Shown here piece by piece: positions 22,086 to 32,005 of a DNA stretch of 64,000 nt (the first letter of the stretch is position 1; each line of letters opens with the position of its first letter). A program made the translations under genes and the position numbers. Below the pieces are notes generated by a model, which was given only the letters and a program-made list of their open reading frames with translations, searched no databases and was not told the origin of the DNA. Origin of the DNA: Pseudochryseolinea flava (GTDB lineage: Bacteria; Bacteroidota; Bacteroidia; Cytophagales; Cyclobacteriaceae); assembly GCF_003286915.1 (NCBI RefSeq), contig NZ_QMFY01000003.1, positions 248,001-312,000 on the forward strand. Reading direction: 5' to 3'.

Positions 22086-22538
22086 CTACTGCACGCCGAT
22101 TTGCACTTCGGTCCAATTTGCCTCTGGGTGCTGGAAATCGGTATTGATGTAGAGCTCACGATTTGCAGCTAACGGACTCAATCCGTTTGTCGAAATGAAC
22201 GACAATAACGCGGCATAGGCATTGGGCAGTGACAGCCAATCTCCCGGATGAACGAGGGAGGCACATTTAAAAGGCTCCGTTCGTTTAAAATGAAATGGAC
22301 CGTCATATTCTTGCGCGATTTTGTCGACGGGCAGTGCGATTTCAAGTGTAAAGGGCTTCGAAAAATCACCCGTAAACCCGAAGTAGTGCCAATGCACCGG
22401 GCCACATACCCATAGATCAAGCTTCACGGCTTCGCGATAAAGGTCTTTCGCAACCGTAAGAAAGTTTGCAAGCTCCGTTACTTTTGCTTCGGTGCGGAAG
22501 AAGAGAAAATTGATCGGTTTAATTTCTTTGATTTCCAT
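22086..22538 (-). CDS. GyrI-like/effector-binding domain protein
   Basis: A 150-residue single-domain protein resembling the C-terminal ligand-binding domain of AraC/MerR-type multidrug regulators: EIKPINFLFFRTEAKVTELANFL, VWHYFGF-like GPVHWHYFGFTGD, FTLEIALPVDKIAQEYDG, FKCASLVHPGDWLSLPNAY and a final strand LYINTDFQHPEANWTEVQIGV. Stand-alone members bind or hydrolyse small hydrophobic compounds. It is part of a minus-strand group with the SRPBCC, DoxX and OYE genes. Confidence 0.8.
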   Translation of the reverse strand: MEIKEIKPINFLFFRTEAKVTELANFLTVAKDLYREAVKLDLWVCGPVHWHYFGFTGDFSKPFTLEIALPVDKIAQEYDGPFHFKRTEPFKCASLVHPGDWLSLPNAYAALLSFISTNGLSPLAANRELYINTDFQHPEANWTEVQIGVQ

Positions 22539-22600
22539 AGTGTTTTTTTTGTAAAGGTGATTGTGACGAATGACAGCAGTATGTCAGTAGAAATTTGAGA

Positions 22601-23035
22601 CTATGAATTTTCCAGAATATTTTTTAGCCGTGATAGATTCTCATAACCTTCTCGCATAGCGTGTTTTAACACTGCAGGCTTTAAGGAACGTACACTCCCC
22701 TTCAAATCGAAGTCTATGGTAAGCTTGAGTAAGGTCTTTTCACCACGAGGCTCGAACTCCAACGCCAGTTCTTGTCGAAGACGGTCGTGTAGAATAATCC
22801 AGGAACGCTTTTGAAACCGTTGATAGGATGTCATCTGCATCAATGCTGGAACTTGCTTGCCGAGGATGCTTCGGGTTTGGAGAAACGCGGAACCTACCTC
22901 ATGCCTGTTCTCTCCGATCCAAGTGGCGTCGACAACCTGACGCTGCCACGCGTGATTGTTTGAAAGATCGGATACATAGTTAAAGAGAGCTTCCACTGGC
23001 CACTCTATTTCAATCTGCTGCTGGATCGAGGTCAT
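22601..23035 (-). CDS. SRPBCC (START-like) family protein
   Basis: A 144-residue protein with the helix-grip pattern of polyketide cyclase/dehydrase-like proteins: the opening strand QQQIEIEWPVEALFNYVSDLSNNHAWQ, a central set of strands (GSAFLQTRSILGKQVPALMQMTSYQ) and a long C-terminal helix (LKPAVLKHAMREGYENLSRLKNIL). It probably binds a hydrophobic ligand in the cytoplasm. There is a gap of 62 bases to the GyrI-like gene. Confidence 0.85.
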   Translation of the reverse strand: MTSIQQQIEIEWPVEALFNYVSDLSNNHAWQRQVVDATWIGENRHEVGSAFLQTRSILGKQVPALMQMTSYQRFQKRSWIILHDRLRQELALEFEPRGEKTLLKLTIDFDLKGSVRSLKPAVLKHAMREGYENLSRLKNILENS

Positions 23036-23110
23036 ATCTTTTTCTTTTAAAGGTCACGGGGTGATATGACAACCTTATGTCAGTAGTGACAAAAAAAATA
23101 AGTGATACCT

Positions 23111-23142
23111 AAAAAAATATAGCCAGTGGAATCTCCACTGGC
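23111..23142 (-). terminator. Rho-independent terminator of nemA-doxX
   Basis: On the minus strand a perfect 9-bp stem (GCCAGTGGA / TCCACTGGC) with a 3-base loop is followed by TATATTTTTTT, 27 bases past the doxX stop. Confidence 0.85.
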
Positions 23143-23168
23143 CGATCTATACGCTGATTGAAATTAGT

Positions 23169-23579
23169 TTACGCAGCAACGGATGACTTTGCGCGGAACA
23201 AAGGGCTAAAGCTATCGCGATATGCCCATACCAAATACAGGTTCAGAAGCAGCATCAATACCGATAGCGCCATTGCACCGGGCTCAAGAAATGCGTGAAA
23301 GAGAAAAATATTCAATGTGATTGGAAAAAGTGCCGCAACGGAAAGCGGAACAAACAATCGGATTATTAAAAACAACCCAAGAATAACTTCAGCTCCTTTC
23401 AGAAACGGGAAGAAATATCCCGAGCCAAAAAGACCTCCGACAAAATTGCTCGCGGCTTCACTTTGCTTAGCATCCATCGGTATAAAGTGTAAGAAAAAAT
23501 TAAGTCCGAAAACAAAATAGATAAGTCCGAGTAAAACCCTAGCGATAAGCGCTGCTACAGATTTCGTTGTTGTGGCCAT
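23169..23579 (-). CDS. DoxX-family membrane protein
   Basis: A 136-residue protein with four hydrophobic segments: ALIARVLLGLIYFVFGLNFFLHF, FFPFLKGAEVILGLFLIIR, VPLSVAALFPITLNIFLFHAF and LSVLMLLLNLYLVWAY. The R-x-L-LGL-x-FxxxGxxxF opening and the central Lys-Gly-x-Glu (KGAEVILG) are DoxX hallmarks. DoxX-like proteins are linked to redox and thiol-stress tolerance in some bacteria. It begins 40 bases after nemA, so the two are probably co-transcribed and share an electrophile or oxidant-related role. Confidence 0.9.
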   Translation of the reverse strand: MATTTKSVAALIARVLLGLIYFVFGLNFFLHFIPMDAKQSEAASNFVGGLFGSGYFFPFLKGAEVILGLFLIIRLFVPLSVAALFPITLNIFLFHAFLEPGAMALSVLMLLLNLYLVWAYRDSFSPLFRAKSSVAA

Positions 23580-23619
23580 ACAGTAATAATTTAGTTTTAA
23601 GGTTTATGTGTTTAAAGCG

Positions 23620-24723
23620 TTAGATAGTGACAGCAGCTTCTTCAAATACAGGGTAGTCGGTGTAGCCTTTTGCTCCCGATGTATAAAAAGTGCTCGCGTC
23701 TAAAATGAGATTCAGCGGTTTACCGTTTCGTAAACGGTCGACGAGATCAGGATTGTTAATAAAGGTTTTTCCGAACGCTACTAAGTCGGCGTGCCCCGAT
23801 GTAACATCAGCCTCTGCACGGTGCACATCGTATCCTCCAGCCTGGATAATCACATTGCTAAATTCGCGACGGATTGCCGCTTTCACTTGTGATGGTACCG
23901 CTGGCGCACCACTCGCACTATGGTCAGCGATATGGATGTAAAGTAAACCTACCTCGTTTAGCGCAGCGGCAAGTTTCGTGTACGTCTCATCGATCTCGTC
24001 GTAAGCGTGCATATCACTTGCTACACCATAAGGCGACAAGCGAATTCCTGTTTTTTCTTTTCCGATGGCATCCGCCACAACCGAGGCTACTTCGAGAACA
24101 AATCGAATCCTATTTTCGACCGATCCGCCATAGTCATCGCTACGCTGGTTGGTATGTGGTGATAAAAATTGTTCAAGCAAGTATCCATTGGCGCCATGAA
24201 GTTCTACGCCGTCGAAGCCTGCAGCAATGGCGTTCTTTGCCGCTTGCACATATTCTTCTTTCGTATTCTGTATTCCCTCAATGGTAAGTTCGCGGGGAAC
24301 GCCGTAAGCTTTTTTACCTTCTTGATCTGTAGAGAGAAAACCCTTTGCTTGAACAACAGAAGGCGCTACGAGATGTGCTCCTTTTGGAAGATTAAGTTGA
24401 TGCCCAATGCGGCCACTATGCATGAGTTGCACAAAGATTTTTCCACCTTTTGCATGAACAGCTTGCGTTACAAGTTTCCACCCGTCGATCTGTGCTTGGG
24501 TGAATATCCCGGGCATTCTCGGATAACCGAGGCCATTGGGTGATGGTGAAGTTCCTTCACTGATGATCAGACCGGCTTCGGCGCGTTGCGCGTAATAACT
24601 CGCCATCAATAGATTGGGTTTATTTTCAATAGCTCTACTGCGCGTGAGGGGTGCCATTACGATTCTGTTGGAAAAAATATGTGAACCGGTATGGAGGGAA
24701 GAAAAAAGGGCTTTGGCTGTCAT
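23620..24723 (-). CDS. nemA: Old-yellow-enzyme-family alkene (N-ethylmaleimide-type) reductase
   Basis: A 367-residue FMN-dependent TIM-barrel enzyme that reduces activated C=C bonds, nitro compounds and electrophiles with NAD(P)H. Visible motifs are SNRIVMAPLTRSRAIENKPNLL (FMN-binding opening), GLIISEGTSPSPNGLGYPRMPGI, VQLMHSGRIGH, FDGVELHGANGYLLEQFLSP-type substrate/FMN segment, TNQRSDDYGGSVENRIRF and GIRLSPYG. The length and motifs match NemA. An ArsR-type gene lies directly upstream on the same strand, and two copies of an A/T-rich site flank its promoter region. Confidence 0.93.
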   Translation of the reverse strand: MTAKALFSSLHTGSHIFSNRIVMAPLTRSRAIENKPNLLMASYYAQRAEAGLIISEGTSPSPNGLGYPRMPGIFTQAQIDGWKLVTQAVHAKGGKIFVQLMHSGRIGHQLNLPKGAHLVAPSVVQAKGFLSTDQEGKKAYGVPRELTIEGIQNTKEEYVQAAKNAIAAGFDGVELHGANGYLLEQFLSPHTNQRSDDYGGSVENRIRFVLEVASVVADAIGKEKTGIRLSPYGVASDMHAYDEIDETYTKLAAALNEVGLLYIHIADHSASGAPAVPSQVKAAIRREFSNVIIQAGGYDVHRAEADVTSGHADLVAFGKTFINNPDLVDRLRNGKPLNLILDASTFYTSGAKGYTDYPVFEEAAVTI

Positions 24724-24743
24724 AACGTAAGAATTGAATTAGT

Positions 24744-24770
24744 TATATATTTAAATATTTCAATATGTTT
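24744..24770. promoter_or_regulatory. Candidate ArsR operator, nemA-proximal copy
   Basis: This 27-bp A/T-rich site contains the palindrome ATATTTAAATAT and matches the copy at 24838-24864 at 24 of 27 positions. It lies 21 bases upstream of the nemA start codon. Confidence 0.5.
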
Positions 24771-24837
24771 ATCTTAAAAAAAACCGAGATACACCCGGCT
24801 GTTGTTATTAACGGCATCTGCCTTCAATTTGTTCATT

Positions 24838-24864
24838 TATATATTTAAATTCTTCAATATATTT
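24838..24864. promoter_or_regulatory. Candidate ArsR operator, distal copy
   Basis: This is the second copy of the 27-bp site, 94 bases (about nine helical turns) from the first, between the arsR stop and nemA. The spacing would suit cooperative binding on one face of the DNA. Confidence 0.45.
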
Positions 24865-24872
24865 TTCAAAAT

Positions 24873-24898
24873 AAAAACCGGCATGTAAACCGGCTTTT
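24873..24898 (-). terminator. Probable terminator of the arsR gene
   Basis: Directly after the arsR stop on the minus strand, AAAGCCGG and CCGGTTTTTA form a short stem around an 8-base loop, ending in a T-rich run. The stem has one bulge, so it is weaker than the others in this window. Confidence 0.4.
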
Positions 24899-24899
24899 C

Positions 24900-25181
24900 C
24901 TAGAACTTTAGTTGCGTGACCGACGCAGTATAATCTTTAAAGAGTCGTTCGTTAAGGGTATACTTTAAGTTTCTCCCCTCTTTCTCTGGCTCAATCAGAC
25001 CGGATTCGATCAAAATCTTTATGTGATGGCTTATGGAGGGCTGCGTTAAATCAATGAGCCCCTGGATTTCAGAGCATTGCCCGCACCCGCCTTTTTTACT
25101 AATGTGCTGCAAAATCCGCAAACGATTGGCGTCACCCAATGCCTTCGAGATTTTTTCGATTTGTTTCAGACTAAGTGCCAT
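24900..25181 (-). CDS. ArsR-family transcriptional regulator
   Basis: A 93-residue winged-helix repressor. The opening (MALSLKQIEKISKALGDANRLRILQHIS), recognition helix region (DLTQPSISHHIKILIESGLIEP) and wing (KEGRNLKYTLNERLFKDY) are canonical. The C33-G-Q-C36 motif lies before the recognition helix, so inducer sensing may involve metal, arsenical or thiol-reactive compounds. It sits directly upstream of nemA-doxX, which it probably represses. A perfect 9-bp inverted repeat overlaps its own leader, suggesting autoregulation. Confidence 0.92.
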   Translation of the reverse strand: MALSLKQIEKISKALGDANRLRILQHISKKGGCGQCSEIQGLIDLTQPSISHHIKILIESGLIEPEKEGRNLKYTLNERLFKDYTASVTQLKF

Positions 25182-25264: not shown

Positions 25265-26179
25265 CTAACAGCTGATAAACAGCAAGCTTTTCGTAATCAC
25301 ATCTTCATCCTTTAGAATGCGAACGTGTCCCAACCTTTCTGTAATTAATATCGAGGCGTCGGGATAGCTGTCCTTTAACGACAAAGCGTTCTCGACAGGA
25401 GCCTCGCGATCGTGCGTGTCGTGGACAATGAGCCAGCGCAATCCTGGATTTAGCTGTTGAACAAAGTGAGACGCCATAAATTCATCAAAGGGCTTATGCA
25501 AACGACTTTTAATGTATCGTTGTAAAGCTTCGCTCAATGATGACGACGCACCCAACCGCGTTGAAAACTCTTTAATGATTTGATCACCACTGGTAGGTGT
25601 CGACAACGTCACGAGTCTCGAAACATCCATTCCTTCCGTGATAGCATAAAGACAAGCGGCACCATCCAATGAATGGGCAATCACGGCATGCGGCTTGCCA
25701 AACACCTGGCGCAGCGCCAATAACGTGTTCTTAAAATCAATAATTGTAGTCTTTTTGCCTTTTGTTAAACCATGAGCAGGTGCATCGAAAGCTACTACTT
25801 GATAACCCGCATTCGTAAAAAAAGGAATAAAGGTTTTGAATTGCGCGCTGCGCCCAGCCCAACCGTGCACAAAAAATACAACTGGACCTTGCGTTCCCCA
25901 TTTGTAGCACCTAACCCTGTTGTCCCATACCGAGAGTTCAAAGCGTTCTGCTTCCTCAATGAACTTTAATTCATTTGCTGGTATCGGGAAACGCGGCGGA
26001 GAGAAAAATAAATTGATAAACCACTTTTCTGCAATGCGTGGCGCCAGCTTTTCAACACGCGGAAATATCCACTGAATCGTACGCAGTGCTAATGGTATGT
26101 TCGGTTTTTTTGACTTCTTGAGTACCGAATTCTCATGTGCAACGTCAACTGACTTCAATACGGTTTCCGATTCCATCAC
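25265..26179 (-). CDS. Alpha/beta-hydrolase-fold protein with an altered nucleophile elbow
   Basis: A 304-residue protein. The core shows GPVVFFVHGWAGRSAQFKTFIPFF (oxyanion segment), GYQVVAFDAPAHGLTKG, the nucleophile region VIAHSLDGAACLYA, the acid region LIVHDTHDREAP and the histidine region ITERLGHVRIL. The nucleophile elbow is normally G-x-S-x-G; here it reads A-H-S-L-D, so both glycines are replaced, although the Ser-Asp-His set is still present. A ~75-residue N-terminal extension precedes the fold. It overlaps the upstream secreted-protein gene by four bases, so the two form an operon probably controlled by the divergent MerR. Confidence 0.88.
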   Translation of the reverse strand: MMESETVLKSVDVAHENSVLKKSKKPNIPLALRTIQWIFPRVEKLAPRIAEKWFINLFFSPPRFPIPANELKFIEEAERFELSVWDNRVRCYKWGTQGPVVFFVHGWAGRSAQFKTFIPFFTNAGYQVVAFDAPAHGLTKGKKTTIIDFKNTLLALRQVFGKPHAVIAHSLDGAACLYAITEGMDVSRLVTLSTPTSGDQIIKEFSTRLGASSSLSEALQRYIKSRLHKPFDEFMASHFVQQLNPGLRWLIVHDTHDREAPVENALSLKDSYPDASILITERLGHVRILKDEDVITKSLLFISC

Positions 26180-26550
26180 TCAAGCACGATTAGTTTCACA
26201 ATGATTCCCTTTGTTCTGTTATTGATTGTACAATTCAATACGAGATTGTACGTACCAGGTGTGGCACCCTCAGATACTACAATGGCCGCTGTCGCGCTGT
26301 TCACATCACCCATAGTTGGATTGAACGAAACGACAACTCCAGCTGGCAATCCAGACCCGACGGTAAGTTTCATTTCACTATGCTCATACTTTTTTGATCG
26401 CGCGATGCTCAGATCAAGATTACTTGATCCTCCCCTGTTAAGTTCTGCACGTGAACTCTTGGCTTGAAAAACAAATTCATTCTTTGACGACTGTGCTGAT
26501 ACATTCATGGCAGTCATGAAAACGAACAACATCATAAGGAGATTTTTCAT
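26176..26550 (-). CDS. Secreted Ig-like-domain protein
   Basis: The ATG at 26550 opens a signal peptide (MKNLLMMLFVFMTAMNVSAQ), so it is preferred over the in-frame ATG at 26598, which would lie inside the MerR-type operator. The ~105-residue mature part is all-beta: LDLSIARSKKYEHSEMKLTVG, LPAGVVVSFNPTMGDVNSATAAIVVSEGATPGTYNLVLNCTINN, GIIVKLIVLE, resembling NEW3/BACON-type Ig folds. The function is unknown. Its stop overlaps the start of the hydrolase gene (ATGA). A 14-bp palindrome lies 28 bases upstream. Confidence 0.78.
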   Translation of the reverse strand: MKNLLMMLFVFMTAMNVSAQSSKNEFVFQAKSSRAELNRGGSSNLDLSIARSKKYEHSEMKLTVGSGLPAGVVVSFNPTMGDVNSATAAIVVSEGATPGTYNLVLNCTINNRTKGIIVKLIVLE

Positions 26551-26577
26551 AAGTTTTTTTTCCACCAATGTAGGGCG

Positions 26578-26591
26578 TAGAGTATAGTCTA
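26578..26591. promoter_or_regulatory. MerR-type operator, copy at the secreted-protein promoter
   Basis: TAGAGTATAGTCTA differs at one position from the perfect palindrome at 26708-26721. It sits 28 bases upstream of the divergent secreted-protein start. Confidence 0.65.
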
Positions 26592-26707
26592 CTGTCAAGT
26601 AGAAATTGAGACAATCTTTTCGATGTTGTACCAGTAATCATGCTGAGGCAAAAAATACTTGGCTTTAGAAAGAAAGAGGGTTAATTTTATTCAAGAAAAC
26701 CAACCGT

Positions 26708-26721
26708 AGAGTATACTCTAT
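26708..26721. promoter_or_regulatory. MerR-type operator, copy at the merR promoter
   Basis: TAGAGTATACTCTA is a perfect 14-bp palindrome 20 bases upstream of the MerR start codon, where an autoregulatory site is expected. Confidence 0.7.
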
Positions 26722-26741: not shown

Positions 26742-27146
26742 ATGTTAATCGGAGAGCTTTCAGAAAAAACAAAATTGTCGCGGCACACCATCCGGTTCTA
26801 CGAGAAATTAGGATTGATCGAGGTTCCGGAGGATTCACGCAGGGGTAACAATTACAAAGAATATCCGGACGACATTTTGCGAAAAATTGCCGCCATTCAA
26901 GAGATCAAGTCTCGTGGGTTTACACTGAAAGAAGCGAAACGTATTCTAGAATTAATCACGTCCGGCACACTCGACCCTAGCCGAAGTAAGAAATACATAG
27001 AACATAAAGTGTCCTTGATTGATAAGCAAATTCGTGAACTGGAGCAGACGAAAGCAAATTTAATTGAACTCGCTGAAATATGTGGATCAACGTATTGCCC
27101 CGTGAACGAAATTCTTAATGGACCACGGCCTACGATAAAAGACTAA
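26742..27146 (+). CDS. MerR-family transcriptional regulator
   Basis: A 134-residue protein. The winged-helix DNA-binding domain occupies residues 1-70 (MLIGELSEKTKLSRHTIRFYEKLGLI, RRGNNYKEYPDDILRKIAAIQEIKSRGFTLKEAKRIL), then the dimerisation coiled-coil (residues ~80-110). The short C-terminal tail holds C114 and C119 in EICGSTYCPVNE, which could bind a metal or respond to thiol-reactive compounds. It is divergent from the secreted protein-hydrolase operon, with a palindromic site at each promoter. MerR proteins usually twist the promoter spacer to activate the target and regulate themselves. Its 3' end overlaps the convergent M48 gene by 17 bases. Confidence 0.93.
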   Translation: MLIGELSEKTKLSRHTIRFYEKLGLIEVPEDSRRGNNYKEYPDDILRKIAAIQEIKSRGFTLKEAKRILELITSGTLDPSRSKKYIEHKVSLIDKQIRELEQTKANLIELAEICGSTYCPVNEILNGPRPTIKD

Positions 27147-29211
27147 CTTGAACTTGTAGCAAATCTTTCTTGAACTTGAAGCACGATTCCGCTGCTGTTG
27201 TTCTTAATATTTCCAACGCTTCAAAAAGGAGATTTAATGTATACTGATTAAAGTTTGTGCCGTCAAAGTACACATGCTTATTCTCAATATATTTCTTCAC
27301 TGACTCTTGCTCCGCAGCATCGAGGCCTCCCATCAATAGCTCCAATCTCGGTTTTACTTTCTGTTCTGCTATCCGAACTTGATTCATAATAGCATGGGCT
27401 GTTTCAATAGATAGCTGAGAAGTAAATATCGGTGCTATGATCGAAGACAAATCGTCAAACATGGCCACGTCGTTCTTTACTTCATCAGTCATGCGAAAGA
27501 GCGTTTGATAGTCTTGTTTAAATCGCTCATCACTACCGTTCCGTTTTGCACGTGAGAGTGCTAGCGTAAATATTTTTTCATCAGCGCAAACTATCGCCGC
27601 CTCACTTTCCTTCAATTCTTTCCGAACGCGATCAACAATACTTCCCACATCATCCCAAGAATAGCGCATACCTTCAAAGTCGAATGATTTAATTTTTCCG
27701 TTCGACTTCATCACCATGTCAAGGCCTTCTAGGTCACGCGTAATTGACGACACTTTCAAGGGCAACGCGATCACTTCTTTGGTAAGCACGTTGTCGATTG
27801 ATTCCGATTCGATATTAAGATATTTTTTATCAACCAACTCGACATCGAATGAAGCGATGTTCCGTCCATTGTAGTATCCTTGGTAAAACTTATCAAGGCT
27901 ATACTTTTCGGTTATGTCGTCATAGTGCGCAACAAAAGACTTCAGATCTAACGGCTGGGGAGCCGATGAAAAATTTACAGTTTCATAAATTTTGGCAGTC
28001 ATCTCTTGTTGAAGCGCCTCCACGTTTTTGAAGACAACCCACGCGGAATCGTGAACAAACGGAGTTTTAATATTGAGTCGATTAAGATGTTCTTCACGGT
28101 CGTCGGTGCTAGGGTGCGATGCCCACTGATCTTTGATCATCAATCGCTGTTGATTAAAATGCGCGAATGTATTGGCATCAACCTGGGGTAGTCCGTGTAC
28201 CAACGGAATGTTGTGTTCTGTCGAGAATCGTTGCATCACAGCGTGATGTTGCGTGTACATGTTGTCCGCCTTTAAGTTGTCTTTAATCCGGCTGTTATAC
28301 ATTTGCAACAACGTGTTATAGCATGAGTCCGCTACTTCCATTCGACGCAATGATGTAACGAGGTGATCAGATCCGCTTACATACGCGGCAACAGCATCGG
28401 CATGGAATTCCATTTGTCGGGAGAGACTCATATAACGTTTATTCATGAATTCATATACACCTCTCAAAATCCATTGGATGCCACGCACGATCGCTCCGGT
28501 GATGCTTGCAAAAATGGCAAAGTAGTCGCTGACGTTCGCCCATCCTTCTAATGTCTTTCCGTAGCTCTCGTTGTCGTAAAGTAGGTTGTAAATTACCCGG
28601 TTCACATTGTACACATAACTTCCGAGCTTCATGCTTCGCTGAGAGAAGTGCCCAAATTCGTGTGCAAGTATTGCTTTGAACTCACCGACATTAACCGAAT
28701 TGACCAGGCCAAGACCGATTTGCAAATTCTTTCGAACCGGTAAGAACATACTCCAGAATCCGGAGTCATAAAACACGCATGCGTTTACTTCCGGTGAAAG
28801 GTAAATTCGTTTTGGAAACGGGGCTTGTGTATCCTCTGTAAGCTTTCGTATAAAAGCAAACAGCACGGGCTGATCTTGCTCTGTAATTTCGATGAGTCCA
28901 GAGCGATCTACTTTATTGGTTTTAAAGATAAATTTCACAAGAAAGTATATCACCATGATACCCAGGCCGCAAAGTCCAAGGCCAAGCATGAGCGTAATAA
29001 ATTTCGGAAACGCGGTGACCAACATAATGCCACCATAGCCACACAGCAAGGCTAGTAGTGTAGCACCGACAACCAATAAAAAGTAAACGATGATAAAGAG
29101 GAAGATGGCGCCAGTAACATTAAAGACTTCTTTTTTAAATTCTGGAGATGGTCGAATCGCAGAATCGTCGTTGATAACTGGGCTCGCAGGATAGTGTAGC
29201 AATTGTGACAT
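27130..29211 (-). CDS. M48-family membrane metalloprotease
   Basis: The start is placed at the ATG at 29211 (MSQLLHYP); an in-frame ATG at 29232 is less likely. The protein is 693 residues. Two or three helices near the N-terminus (VTGAIFLFIIVYFLLVVGATLLALLC, LMLGLGLCGLGIMVIYFLVKFIF) anchor it. The zinc site is HEFGH (about residues 184-188) in LAHEFGHFSQRSMKLG, with the downstream glutamate in QMEFHADAVAAYV. A ~420-residue C-terminal domain has no obvious catalytic motif. It is related to HtpX/Ste24-type proteases in the active-site region but is much longer. It probably cleaves membrane or envelope proteins. Confidence 0.9.
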   Translation of the reverse strand: MSQLLHYPASPVINDDSAIRPSPEFKKEVFNVTGAIFLFIIVYFLLVVGATLLALLCGYGGIMLVTAFPKFITLMLGLGLCGLGIMVIYFLVKFIFKTNKVDRSGLIEITEQDQPVLFAFIRKLTEDTQAPFPKRIYLSPEVNACVFYDSGFWSMFLPVRKNLQIGLGLVNSVNVGEFKAILAHEFGHFSQRSMKLGSYVYNVNRVIYNLLYDNESYGKTLEGWANVSDYFAIFASITGAIVRGIQWILRGVYEFMNKRYMSLSRQMEFHADAVAAYVSGSDHLVTSLRRMEVADSCYNTLLQMYNSRIKDNLKADNMYTQHHAVMQRFSTEHNIPLVHGLPQVDANTFAHFNQQRLMIKDQWASHPSTDDREEHLNRLNIKTPFVHDSAWVVFKNVEALQQEMTAKIYETVNFSSAPQPLDLKSFVAHYDDITEKYSLDKFYQGYYNGRNIASFDVELVDKKYLNIESESIDNVLTKEVIALPLKVSSITRDLEGLDMVMKSNGKIKSFDFEGMRYSWDDVGSIVDRVRKELKESEAAIVCADEKIFTLALSRAKRNGSDERFKQDYQTLFRMTDEVKNDVAMFDDLSSIIAPIFTSQLSIETAHAIMNQVRIAEQKVKPRLELLMGGLDAAEQESVKKYIENKHVYFDGTNFNQYTLNLLFEALEILRTTAAESCFKFKKDLLQVQVSLLS

Positions 29212-29491: not shown

Positions 29492-32005
29492 ATGATGCGA
29501 AAGATATTATGTTACGCCCTCCTGATGAGTTGGTATAGTGTCGTTGGGCAGGAGATTCAACGTGGCGATACAGCGAGATTACAATCCAAAGACACAGCTA
29601 TTCAAGTTGTGCCTCAGAAGAAATACATTGCCTCCTATCGGCCGGATACGACGAAGCGTGAGGCGCCCAGTTCAGTGCCCGCTGGTAATGATCAATTGTC
29701 GGCACCAAGCACTTATGCCAAACTGATCAAGCCGCACGCATTGACAAGAAAAGGTTTGTTTACCGTTCATCGCGTAGATGACAACTATTATTTTGAGATC
29801 CCTGACAGTCTGCTCGGCCGTGATTTGCTTGTGGTTACGCGGATTGCACAAGGCGCTGCAGGTGTTCGACCTGAATATACCGGATATGCTGGCGATCAGG
29901 TGGGCAGCACAATTATCCGCTTCGAGCGTGGTCCGAATCATAAATTGTTTTTGAGACGAATCACATATGAGGAAAATCCTGGCGACAGTACGAATGCCAT
30001 GTTCCACGCTGTTGTTCGCTCCAATCTTCAACCACTTGTCGCCGCGTTCGGTGTAGGGGCATACGCGCTCAATCTTCGTGGCAGTGTAATCGATATCACC
30101 GACTACATCAATGGCGACAACGACATCTTGTTCTTCAACTCAACAGCAAGAAAAACGATGCGGGTCGGCAGCATGCAATCGAACATGTGTTATATCAAAG
30201 ACATCAATTCCTTCCCGCTTAATTTAGAAATCAGAACAATTAAAACGTATACACAAACATCGAGTGATAATAACTTTACGCTTGAGTTGAATACCTCGAT
30301 CGTTCTGCTTCCGAAGAAACCGATGCGCAAGAGATTTGCAGATCGACGCGTGGGATATTTTACGGAACGCTACGTCGATTACGACGCAAATCCACAAGGT
30401 GTTAAGACAGTTAATTACATCAAGCGCTGGCGATTGGAGCCAAAGCCCCAAGACATGGCGAAATATAAAAGCGGCGAATTGGTGGAACCACAAAAGCCAA
30501 TCATCTATTACATCGACCCTGCAACACCTAAGAAGTGGGTTCCTTATTTAATGCAAGGTGTAATGGATTGGCAGAAGGCATTCGAGAAGGCAGGATTCAA
30601 GAACGCGATCTTGGCGAAAGAAGCACCTGACCCGCGCGAGCAACCCAACTGGAGTTTGGAAGATTCGCGACATTCTGCAATTGTGTATAAGCCTTCATCA
30701 TTTGCCAATGCCGCCGGCCCTATCATCACCGATCCGCGTAGTGGCGAAATATTGGAAAGCCATATAAACTGGTATCATAACCTGATGTCTATTCTCCGCG
30801 AATGGTACATGGTGCAATGTGGTACGACAGATCCACGCGCACAAAAAATGAAATTCGATGATGCATTGATGGGACAACTTATCCGATCTGTCTGCGCGCA
30901 TGAAGTCGGGCATTCATTAGGACTCACGCACAATTTCGGCAGTAGTTCAACAGTGCCTGTTGAAAAACTTCGCGACCGTGAGTGGCTTGCAGTACACGGT
31001 CATACGCCGTCCATTATGGACTACTCACGCTTCAATTACGTGGCGCAGCCAGAAGACAGTGTCGGTGAAGCAGGTTTGATTTCTCGCATCGGTGACTACG
31101 ATTGTTGGGCGATCGAGTATGGTTATAGACTTCTTCCAGAAATAAAATCCGAAGAGAATGAGATACCTTTTCTCAACGGTTGGATCATGGACAAGATGAA
31201 AGACAAAAGACTTTGGTTTGGTTCTGAATTTACAATCGATGATCCACGCATTCAAACGGAAGATCTTGGAGACAATGCGATGAAGGCTGGTGATTACGGA
31301 ATAAAAAACTTACAACGCATTGTGCCGCGATTAATTCATTGGACATACGAACCAAACGAAGGTTATCGAAATTTAAAGCAACTGTATGCAGGGGTGATCA
31401 ACCAATACAATTTCTATTTAGGCCACGTCATCACATACATCGGCGGAACATTTGAAACGGTAAAAACGGCAGAGCAAGTGGGGCCAGTGTACTCGCCGGT
31501 ACCAGGTTCTCTTCAGCGCGAGGCCGTGCAATTTTTATCGAGACATGTTTTTCAAACGCCAACATGGTTATTGGATACCGCACTGCTTTCGCGCACAGGA
31601 CAATCACCGGAGCAAATCGTGACTGACGCTCATCGTATGGCATTGAATAATATTCTGAGCAATACGACCCTTAATAAACTTCAAGAGTCAGAAGCGATGT
31701 ATGGGCTAAAGGCATATCGATTTTTAGATTTGTTGGATGACGTAGACAAAGAGATATGGACAGAGCTTAACACATACGCATCCATTTCAATTTACCGGAG
31801 AAATTTACAGCGACATTACATTGAACGCCTTCTTGAGCTGGCAACGCCACGCAGCGGTTGGGACACGCGAGATGTGGGGCCAGTGGTCGCGAACAAGCTA
31901 GCCGAGATCGATCTGCGAATTGACAAGGCTTTGACCAAAACAAAAGACGCAATGACTGTATATCACCTCCGCTACATTCAAGACAAAATAAAAGCAACTA
32001 AGTAA
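29492..32005 (+). CDS. Secreted zinc-dependent metalloprotease (DUF5117/DUF5118/DUF4953 type)
   Basis: An 837-residue protein with a signal peptide (ending SVVGQ). The N-terminal DUF5118-like and DUF5117-like regions (LFTVHRVDDNYYFEIPDSLLGRDLLVVTRIAQG, GSTIIRFERGPNHKLFLR) precede the catalytic gluzincin/metzincin-type motif HEVGHSLGLTHNF, H470-E471-H474 with the third ligand in the GLTHNF segment, followed by PSIMDYSRFNYVAQPED (Met-turn-like). This is a common periplasmic/outer-membrane protease family of Bacteroidota with unknown substrates. It is divergent from the M48 gene across a 280-bp intergenic region. Confidence 0.93.
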   Translation: MMRKILCYALLMSWYSVVGQEIQRGDTARLQSKDTAIQVVPQKKYIASYRPDTTKREAPSSVPAGNDQLSAPSTYAKLIKPHALTRKGLFTVHRVDDNYYFEIPDSLLGRDLLVVTRIAQGAAGVRPEYTGYAGDQVGSTIIRFERGPNHKLFLRRITYEENPGDSTNAMFHAVVRSNLQPLVAAFGVGAYALNLRGSVIDITDYINGDNDILFFNSTARKTMRVGSMQSNMCYIKDINSFPLNLEIRTIKTYTQTSSDNNFTLELNTSIVLLPKKPMRKRFADRRVGYFTERYVDYDANPQGVKTVNYIKRWRLEPKPQDMAKYKSGELVEPQKPIIYYIDPATPKKWVPYLMQGVMDWQKAFEKAGFKNAILAKEAPDPREQPNWSLEDSRHSAIVYKPSSFANAAGPIITDPRSGEILESHINWYHNLMSILREWYMVQCGTTDPRAQKMKFDDALMGQLIRSVCAHEVGHSLGLTHNFGSSSTVPVEKLRDREWLAVHGHTPSIMDYSRFNYVAQPEDSVGEAGLISRIGDYDCWAIEYGYRLLPEIKSEENEIPFLNGWIMDKMKDKRLWFGSEFTIDDPRIQTEDLGDNAMKAGDYGIKNLQRIVPRLIHWTYEPNEGYRNLKQLYAGVINQYNFYLGHVITYIGGTFETVKTAEQVGPVYSPVPGSLQREAVQFLSRHVFQTPTWLLDTALLSRTGQSPEQIVTDAHRMALNNILSNTTLNKLQESEAMYGLKAYRFLDLLDDVDKEIWTELNTYASISIYRRNLQRHYIERLLELATPRSGWDTRDVGPVVANKLAEIDLRIDKALTKTKDAMTVYHLRYIQDKIKATK

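Follow-up and report, generated by a model that had tools for sequence, protein, structure and literature searches.

A conserved two-site arrangement between a divergent merR gene and a secreted protein-hydrolase operon suggests a self-contained MerR-type switch in Bacteroidota

Does one MerR-family regulator govern both its own gene and a small neighboring operon through two separate sites? The question arises at a locus within a 64,000-nucleotide stretch of DNA (the window, by which we mean that whole stretch) from the genome of a bacterium related to Ohtaekwangia (6,542,746 bases, 48 contigs). There, merR is divergent from two genes, sec and hyd, and the intergenic DNA of this cassette holds two 14-bp sites, TAGAGTATAGTCTA and TAGAGTATACTCTA, exactly where a first-pass annotation had placed them (Table 1). 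We refer to them as the target-proximal and merR-proximal sites. Their centers are 129 bp apart, and the merR-proximal palindrome lies 35 bases before the merR start. A mechanically listed sec open reading frame begins with a TTG at 26598, beyond the target-proximal site; the likely start, however, is the ATG at 26550, and hence the site is non-coding promoter DNA.

Table 1. Positions in the window of the cassette genes and of the observed and predicted control elements.
Feature	Position	Strand	Basis
Target-proximal operator (predicted), TAGAGTATAGTCTA	26578..26591		One symmetric mismatch; in the sec-hyd promoter spacer; conserved
merR-proximal operator (predicted), TAGAGTATACTCTA	26707..26720		Perfect palindrome; probably autoregulatory
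-35 box of the sec-hyd promoter, TTGACA	26593..26598	-	Sequence; TTGAC there in 6/6 cassette loci
-10 box of the sec-hyd promoter, TACATT (TAnnTT)	26567..26572	-	Sequence; 20-bp spacer in 6/6 cassette loci
Possible -10 box for merR, TAATTTTA, upstream of its proximal operator	26682..26689	+	TTAATTTTA kept in 5/5 genus loci
sec: 124 aa, signal peptide (by inspection), one Ig-like beta-sandwich domain	26176..26550	-	Orthologues in 4/4 other genus cassette loci
hyd: 303-aa alpha/beta hydrolase; start codon overlaps the sec stop by one base	25265..26176	-	Pfam
merR: 134-aa MerR-family regulator, C114-x4-C119, Pro79	26742..27146	+	Pfam; cysteines invariant in 5 genus orthologues; alignments

Perhaps the two sites merely resemble each other by chance? 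A genome search for the 14-mer, which the first-pass annotation had proposed, found TAGAGTATASTCTA with at most one mismatch nowhere else in the genome. Allowing two mismatches, there were 12 forward and 14 reverse matches genome-wide, versus 38 and 35 for the reversed-pattern control. Within the window alone, matches with up to three mismatches were mildly more frequent than expected by chance (10 versus a shuffle mean of 4.27; 2 of 100 shuffles reached as high a count). This excess is weak alone, and therefore conservation had to decide.

Our search for the regulator took in the window's genome and 38 relatives, 39 genomes in all. Four further genus members (G001, G004, G005 and G006), one of which is Ohtaekwangia koreensis, yielded orthologues with 58-59% identity. 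The remaining genus members, G002 and G003, yielded only more distant MerR proteins and no orthologue. All four orthologues are divergent from sec-hyd, with identities to the window's proteins of 34-36% for Sec and 47-48% for Hyd. The cassette also occurs beyond the genus, in Catalimonadaceae bacterium JC749 (L087, which appears to be one locus with G223 and L060), where a regulator with 58% identity is directly divergent from hyd and sec is absent. The first-pass annotation had named orthologous loci as the place where its prediction could fail, and both sites are present at all six cassette loci. By intergenic alignment, the merR-proximal palindrome is kept letter for letter in all five genus loci, and the target-proximal site reads TAGAGTATAGTC[TGA]A across them; JC749 keeps both sites, with TAGACTATAGTCTA as its merR-proximal version. 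Among the seven genus genomes, TAGAGTATASTC is at the cassette in each of the five that have it and is absent entirely from the two that lack a regulator orthologue, so that site and regulator are present or absent together in 7/7. Off-locus matches to TAGAGTATASTC were rejected as a regulon: there were three in the genus (G005, G001 and G006) versus four for the reversed-pattern control in the same seven genomes.

The intergenic DNA of four lineages (the window, O. koreensis, G005 and JC749) also has 8- to 14-mers in common, all of which map to the target-proximal site together with its -35 box. Dinucleotide shuffles gave no shared k-mer in 500 trials for k of 8, 9 or 10. We conclude that the two-site arrangement is real and conserved.

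What kind of promoter does the target-proximal site occupy? At all six cassette loci, it fills the spacer of a TTGACA-N20-TAnnTT promoter whose -10 box is TACATT or TACCTT; in JC749 the gene downstream is hyd. MerR-regulated promoters are described in a review (PMC9909328) as having spacers of 19-20 bp against an optimum of 17 bp. Here, the dyad lies within a 20-bp spacer of the target promoter, as in the MerR family, and this match to the spacers given in that source supports MerR-type activation. The full promoter signature occurs once in the window's genome at 0 or 1 mismatch, at the cassette, and the best match elsewhere has two mismatches; a wider regulon is not supported. The TAnnTT box resembles the Bacteroidota -7 element, TAnnTTTG.

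The merR-proximal site has a different setting. Towards sec, TTGAC is found at the -35 place in none of the six cassette loci; towards merR, the window has CCAACC at that place, and no TTGAC was seen in the contexts examined. The conserved TTAATTTTA upstream may hold the merR -10 box; the operator would then lie within the first transcribed stretch and act as a roadblock. The TAnnTTT box of this guessed promoter is a weak signal in AT-rich DNA. The two sites are probably not equivalent: the target-proximal one has the features of a MerR-type activation operator in its 20-bp spacer, and the merR-proximal one appears autoregulatory.

We wondered how other MerR loci are arranged. Of 54 loci scanned, 48 were distinct after six that repeated a genome were left out; six of these are the cassette and 42 are others. 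Twenty-eight of the 42 have one site of this type (at most one mismatch) near merR, and 14 have none. A separate second site within 200 bases, at the same threshold, was found at none of the 42, although in L091 a further one-mismatch match lies 484 bases upstream, and at two mismatches a second match overlaps the first in L103 and L127. TTGAC stands at the same place in 12 of the 28 single-site loci, nine of which also have TAnnTT at a 20-bp spacer; the other 16 lack TTGAC. Hence, this kind of operator is shared by a broad set of MerR proteins in Bacteroidota, and the GTATAG center common in it is a normal form at promoters and not a decayed copy. Single-site Bacteroidota loci share the consensus T[AG]GA[GC]TATA[GC]TC[CT]A near merR, 40-53 bases before the gene.

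One group of MerR proteins, 120 aa long and without the cysteine pair (L048, L103, L107, L110, L111, L114-L117, L119 and L120), is encoded 49-52 bases beyond a site of the TAGAGTATAGTCTA type, and the divergent targets include short-chain dehydrogenases. In L121 and L123, merR is divergent from a haloalkane-dehalogenase-like alpha/beta hydrolase gene, with a site at two mismatches only; this is a second MerR-hydrolase pairing, unrelated to the cassette. In Paraflavitalea pollutisoli (L091:4578-4913), a YnfA/UPF0060 membrane protein is divergent from the MerR gene with one operator between them.

Given sites, conservation, promoter geometry and confinement to one locus, we consider it likely that the cassette is a self-contained MerR-type switch, in which MerR binds both sites, activates sec-hyd and limits its own synthesis. 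A MerR dimer would bind each palindrome. At the target-proximal site it would sit between the -35 and -10 boxes, whose 20-bp spacer would be too long for RNA polymerase, and on meeting its inducer MerR would distort the DNA and turn sec-hyd on. At the merR-proximal site, MerR would keep its own production in check, probably repressing its gene by obstructing transcription that starts at a promoter immediately upstream. The first-pass annotation had predicted a single regulator with two sites and a small operon, and comparative genomics lends that prediction support. Counting against the switch are the 14 of 42 other MerR loci that have no site, the 16 of 28 single-site loci without TTGAC and the guesswork in the merR promoter.

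Could the merR-proximal site instead be a second activation operator, through which MerR positively controls its own gene? Its perfect symmetry and its place 35 bases before merR, close to the 40-53 bases seen in single-site relatives, would suit such a role, but the missing TTGAC at the -35 place towards sec in all six loci, and the CCAACC found in its stead towards merR in the window, make it unlikely. Dimers at the two sites might also interact, loop the intergenic DNA and silence both promoters until the inducer arrives. Two sites conserved as a pair in one intergenic region are what looping would use; however, their centers are 129 (window), 77, 77, 81, 81 and 66 bp apart, with no single helical phase. 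Since the distances vary this much, fixed-phase looping is not required, and we regard looping as quite unlikely. That the palindromes are chance or another factor's sites is highly improbable: the 14-mer is short and its in-window excess at three mismatches small, but within the genus the site is present where the regulator is and missing where it is missing, the same site type precedes merR at 28 of the 42 other loci, with differing neighbors, and no shuffle reproduced the k-mer sharing among four lineages. The MerR-type switch remains our preferred reading.

To what might such a switch respond? The regulator scores above cut-off with three MerR-family Pfam profiles (PF13411, MerR_1, 58.4 bits; PF00376, MerR, 42.2; PF09278, MerR-DNA-bind, 33.1) and falls below every cut-off among the curated subfamily models, including those for CueR (67.1 bits versus 147.4) and SoxR (32.5 versus 116.9); it has only two cysteines. 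These are the C-x4-C pair noted in the first-pass annotation, which proved real: C114 and C119 stand unchanged in all five orthologues of the genus, and JC749 has the pair too. The third cysteine of divalent-metal sensors (Cys79) is Pro or Ala in all six cassette regulators; several MerR relatives keep it (e.g., L091, L092 and L096). The cysteine pattern is nearest that of CueR, with a loop of four residues instead of seven; Pro79 stands where the Ser/Cys residue falls. Because the operon has no metal-efflux gene, the targets give a metal-sensor reading of the cysteines no support. Our guess is that C114 and C119 would see either a thiophilic metal ion or an electrophile, the two being about equally likely.

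The target genes share a base between the sec stop and the hyd start (TGATG), and for this reason they look like one operon. Sec has no Pfam match and fits no other family; its assignment goes no further than an Ig-like fold. Its structure model is confident and all-beta (pLDDT 85.1), and the best PDB matches, at modest scores, are mostly Ig-like domains or proteins holding one. The same genome encodes a second secreted Ig-like copy (G000:C45:289919-290293, L050), adjoining a gene that resembles the LytTR regulator found beside a homologue in L052; sec homologues elsewhere adjoin a LytTR regulator.

Hyd matches Abhydrolase_1, Abhydrolase_6 and Hydrolase_4 above the Pfam cut-offs. The first-pass annotation had called it atypical, and this holds for the nucleophile elbow, which departs from GxSxG: the window's protein has A-H-S-L-D and the orthologues from the other four genus genomes have A-H-S-I-G. 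The candidate Ser, Asp and His residues are intact, with S169, D253, D256 and H284 invariant in the five orthologues, so Hyd is not very atypical. No substrate could be named: PDB profile matches are generic (esterases, lipases and epoxide hydrolases), and the Hyd model (pLDDT 76.7) resembles many esterases at a TM score of about 0.5-0.6. Among 25 hydrolase loci examined (L060-L084), 24 are without such sites. Neighbors of hyd homologues elsewhere include genes for TetR, 4HBT thioesterase, TANGO2 and ABC-ATPase; the TetR and 4HBT genes offer a lead, and only a lead, to the hydrolase substrate. We would guess that the outcome of the switch is hydrolysis of a harmful or lipid-like ester, along with a secreted Ig-like envelope protein.

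How did the two-site form arise? On a tree of 45 sequences, from which nine loci were left out as repeats or as poor or distant rows, the six cassette regulators form one group (support 99/89; 99% of 200 bootstrap trees). Among the loci scanned, only this group showed two separate sites. An ancestral shared operator may have doubled, with the merR-proximal copy then losing its promoter role. A broader history is possible, though doubtful: a MerR-type sensor that had lost the third metal cysteine would have turned to sensing an organic or electrophilic signal and would have taken over additional copies of the genes for a hydrolase and a secreted Ig-like protein, relatives of which stand elsewhere beside TetR and LytTR genes, as the ancestral shared operator split in two. 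If this were true, target activation and regulator control would evolve apart.

The surroundings of the cassette recur in part. Five of the six loci (L085:2900-3520, L086, L087, L088 and L089) have a gene for a GyrI-like protein at a distance of up to about 3 kb; the GyrI-like gene of those loci is not in the window, and a search of the window's genome gave no match to it. Some GyrI-like proteins, a subfamily described in PMC5684135, hydrolyze DNA-alkylating compounds, and such a neighbor fits a detoxification role weakly. Downstream on the same strand, window positions 22086-25181 encode an ArsR regulator that contains a CGQC motif, a flavoenzyme resembling N-ethylmaleimide reductase, an SRPBCC protein, a GyrI-like protein and a membrane protein that we read as DoxX-like, although it matched no family. 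ArsR and flavoenzyme genes are also near the cassette in L085, L086 and L088. On the other side, a gene for a large M48 peptidase (27130-29208) converges on merR and is followed by one for a DUF4953/DUF5117 met-zincin (29492-32005); we saw no sign that either is linked to the switch.

For those who study regulation in Bacteroidota, the cassette offers a precise, cheaply testable circuit. The family-wide operator consensus, together with the promoter geometry, could make MerR targets readable from sequence, and the two-site form may show a shared divergent operator splitting into two specialized ones. Once its inducer is known, the circuit could serve as a one-promoter biosensor.

We found no description of the cassette in the literature covered, which comprised titles and the starts of abstracts, with most subscription papers outside its scope; a search for GAGTATACTC with MerR matched only an unrelated human-genetics paper. 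MliR of Bizionia argentinensis is likewise a MerR-superfamily regulator of a Bacteroidota member, but is described in PMC9478572 as having neither the effector region nor any cysteine. The Cu(I)/Ag(I) sensor CueR shares the MerR fold, two loop cysteines, the lack of Cys at the Cys77/79 position and an operator inside a long promoter spacer. It differs in its C-x7-C loop (Cys112, Cys120) and Ser77, where cassette regulators have C-x4-C and Pro or Ala, and in its target, a copper exporter rather than a hydrolase operon. The divalent-metal sensors MerR, CadR and ZntR have family, operator type and promoter geometry in common with the cassette, and those relatives in Bacteroidota that have the third cysteine show the TTGACNG-site layout as well; that cysteine (Cys77/79/82, from the partner subunit) is missing in all six cassette regulators. 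Single-site Bacteroidota MerR loci (e.g., L092, L096, L048 and L091) have the operator consensus near merR and mostly divergent targets, but only one site, and their targets are of other kinds, such as YnfA/UPF0060 proteins, short-chain dehydrogenases or small Cys-rich membrane proteins. Two separate sites in place of one make the cassette a conserved variant of the familiar MerR switch and not a new kind of system.
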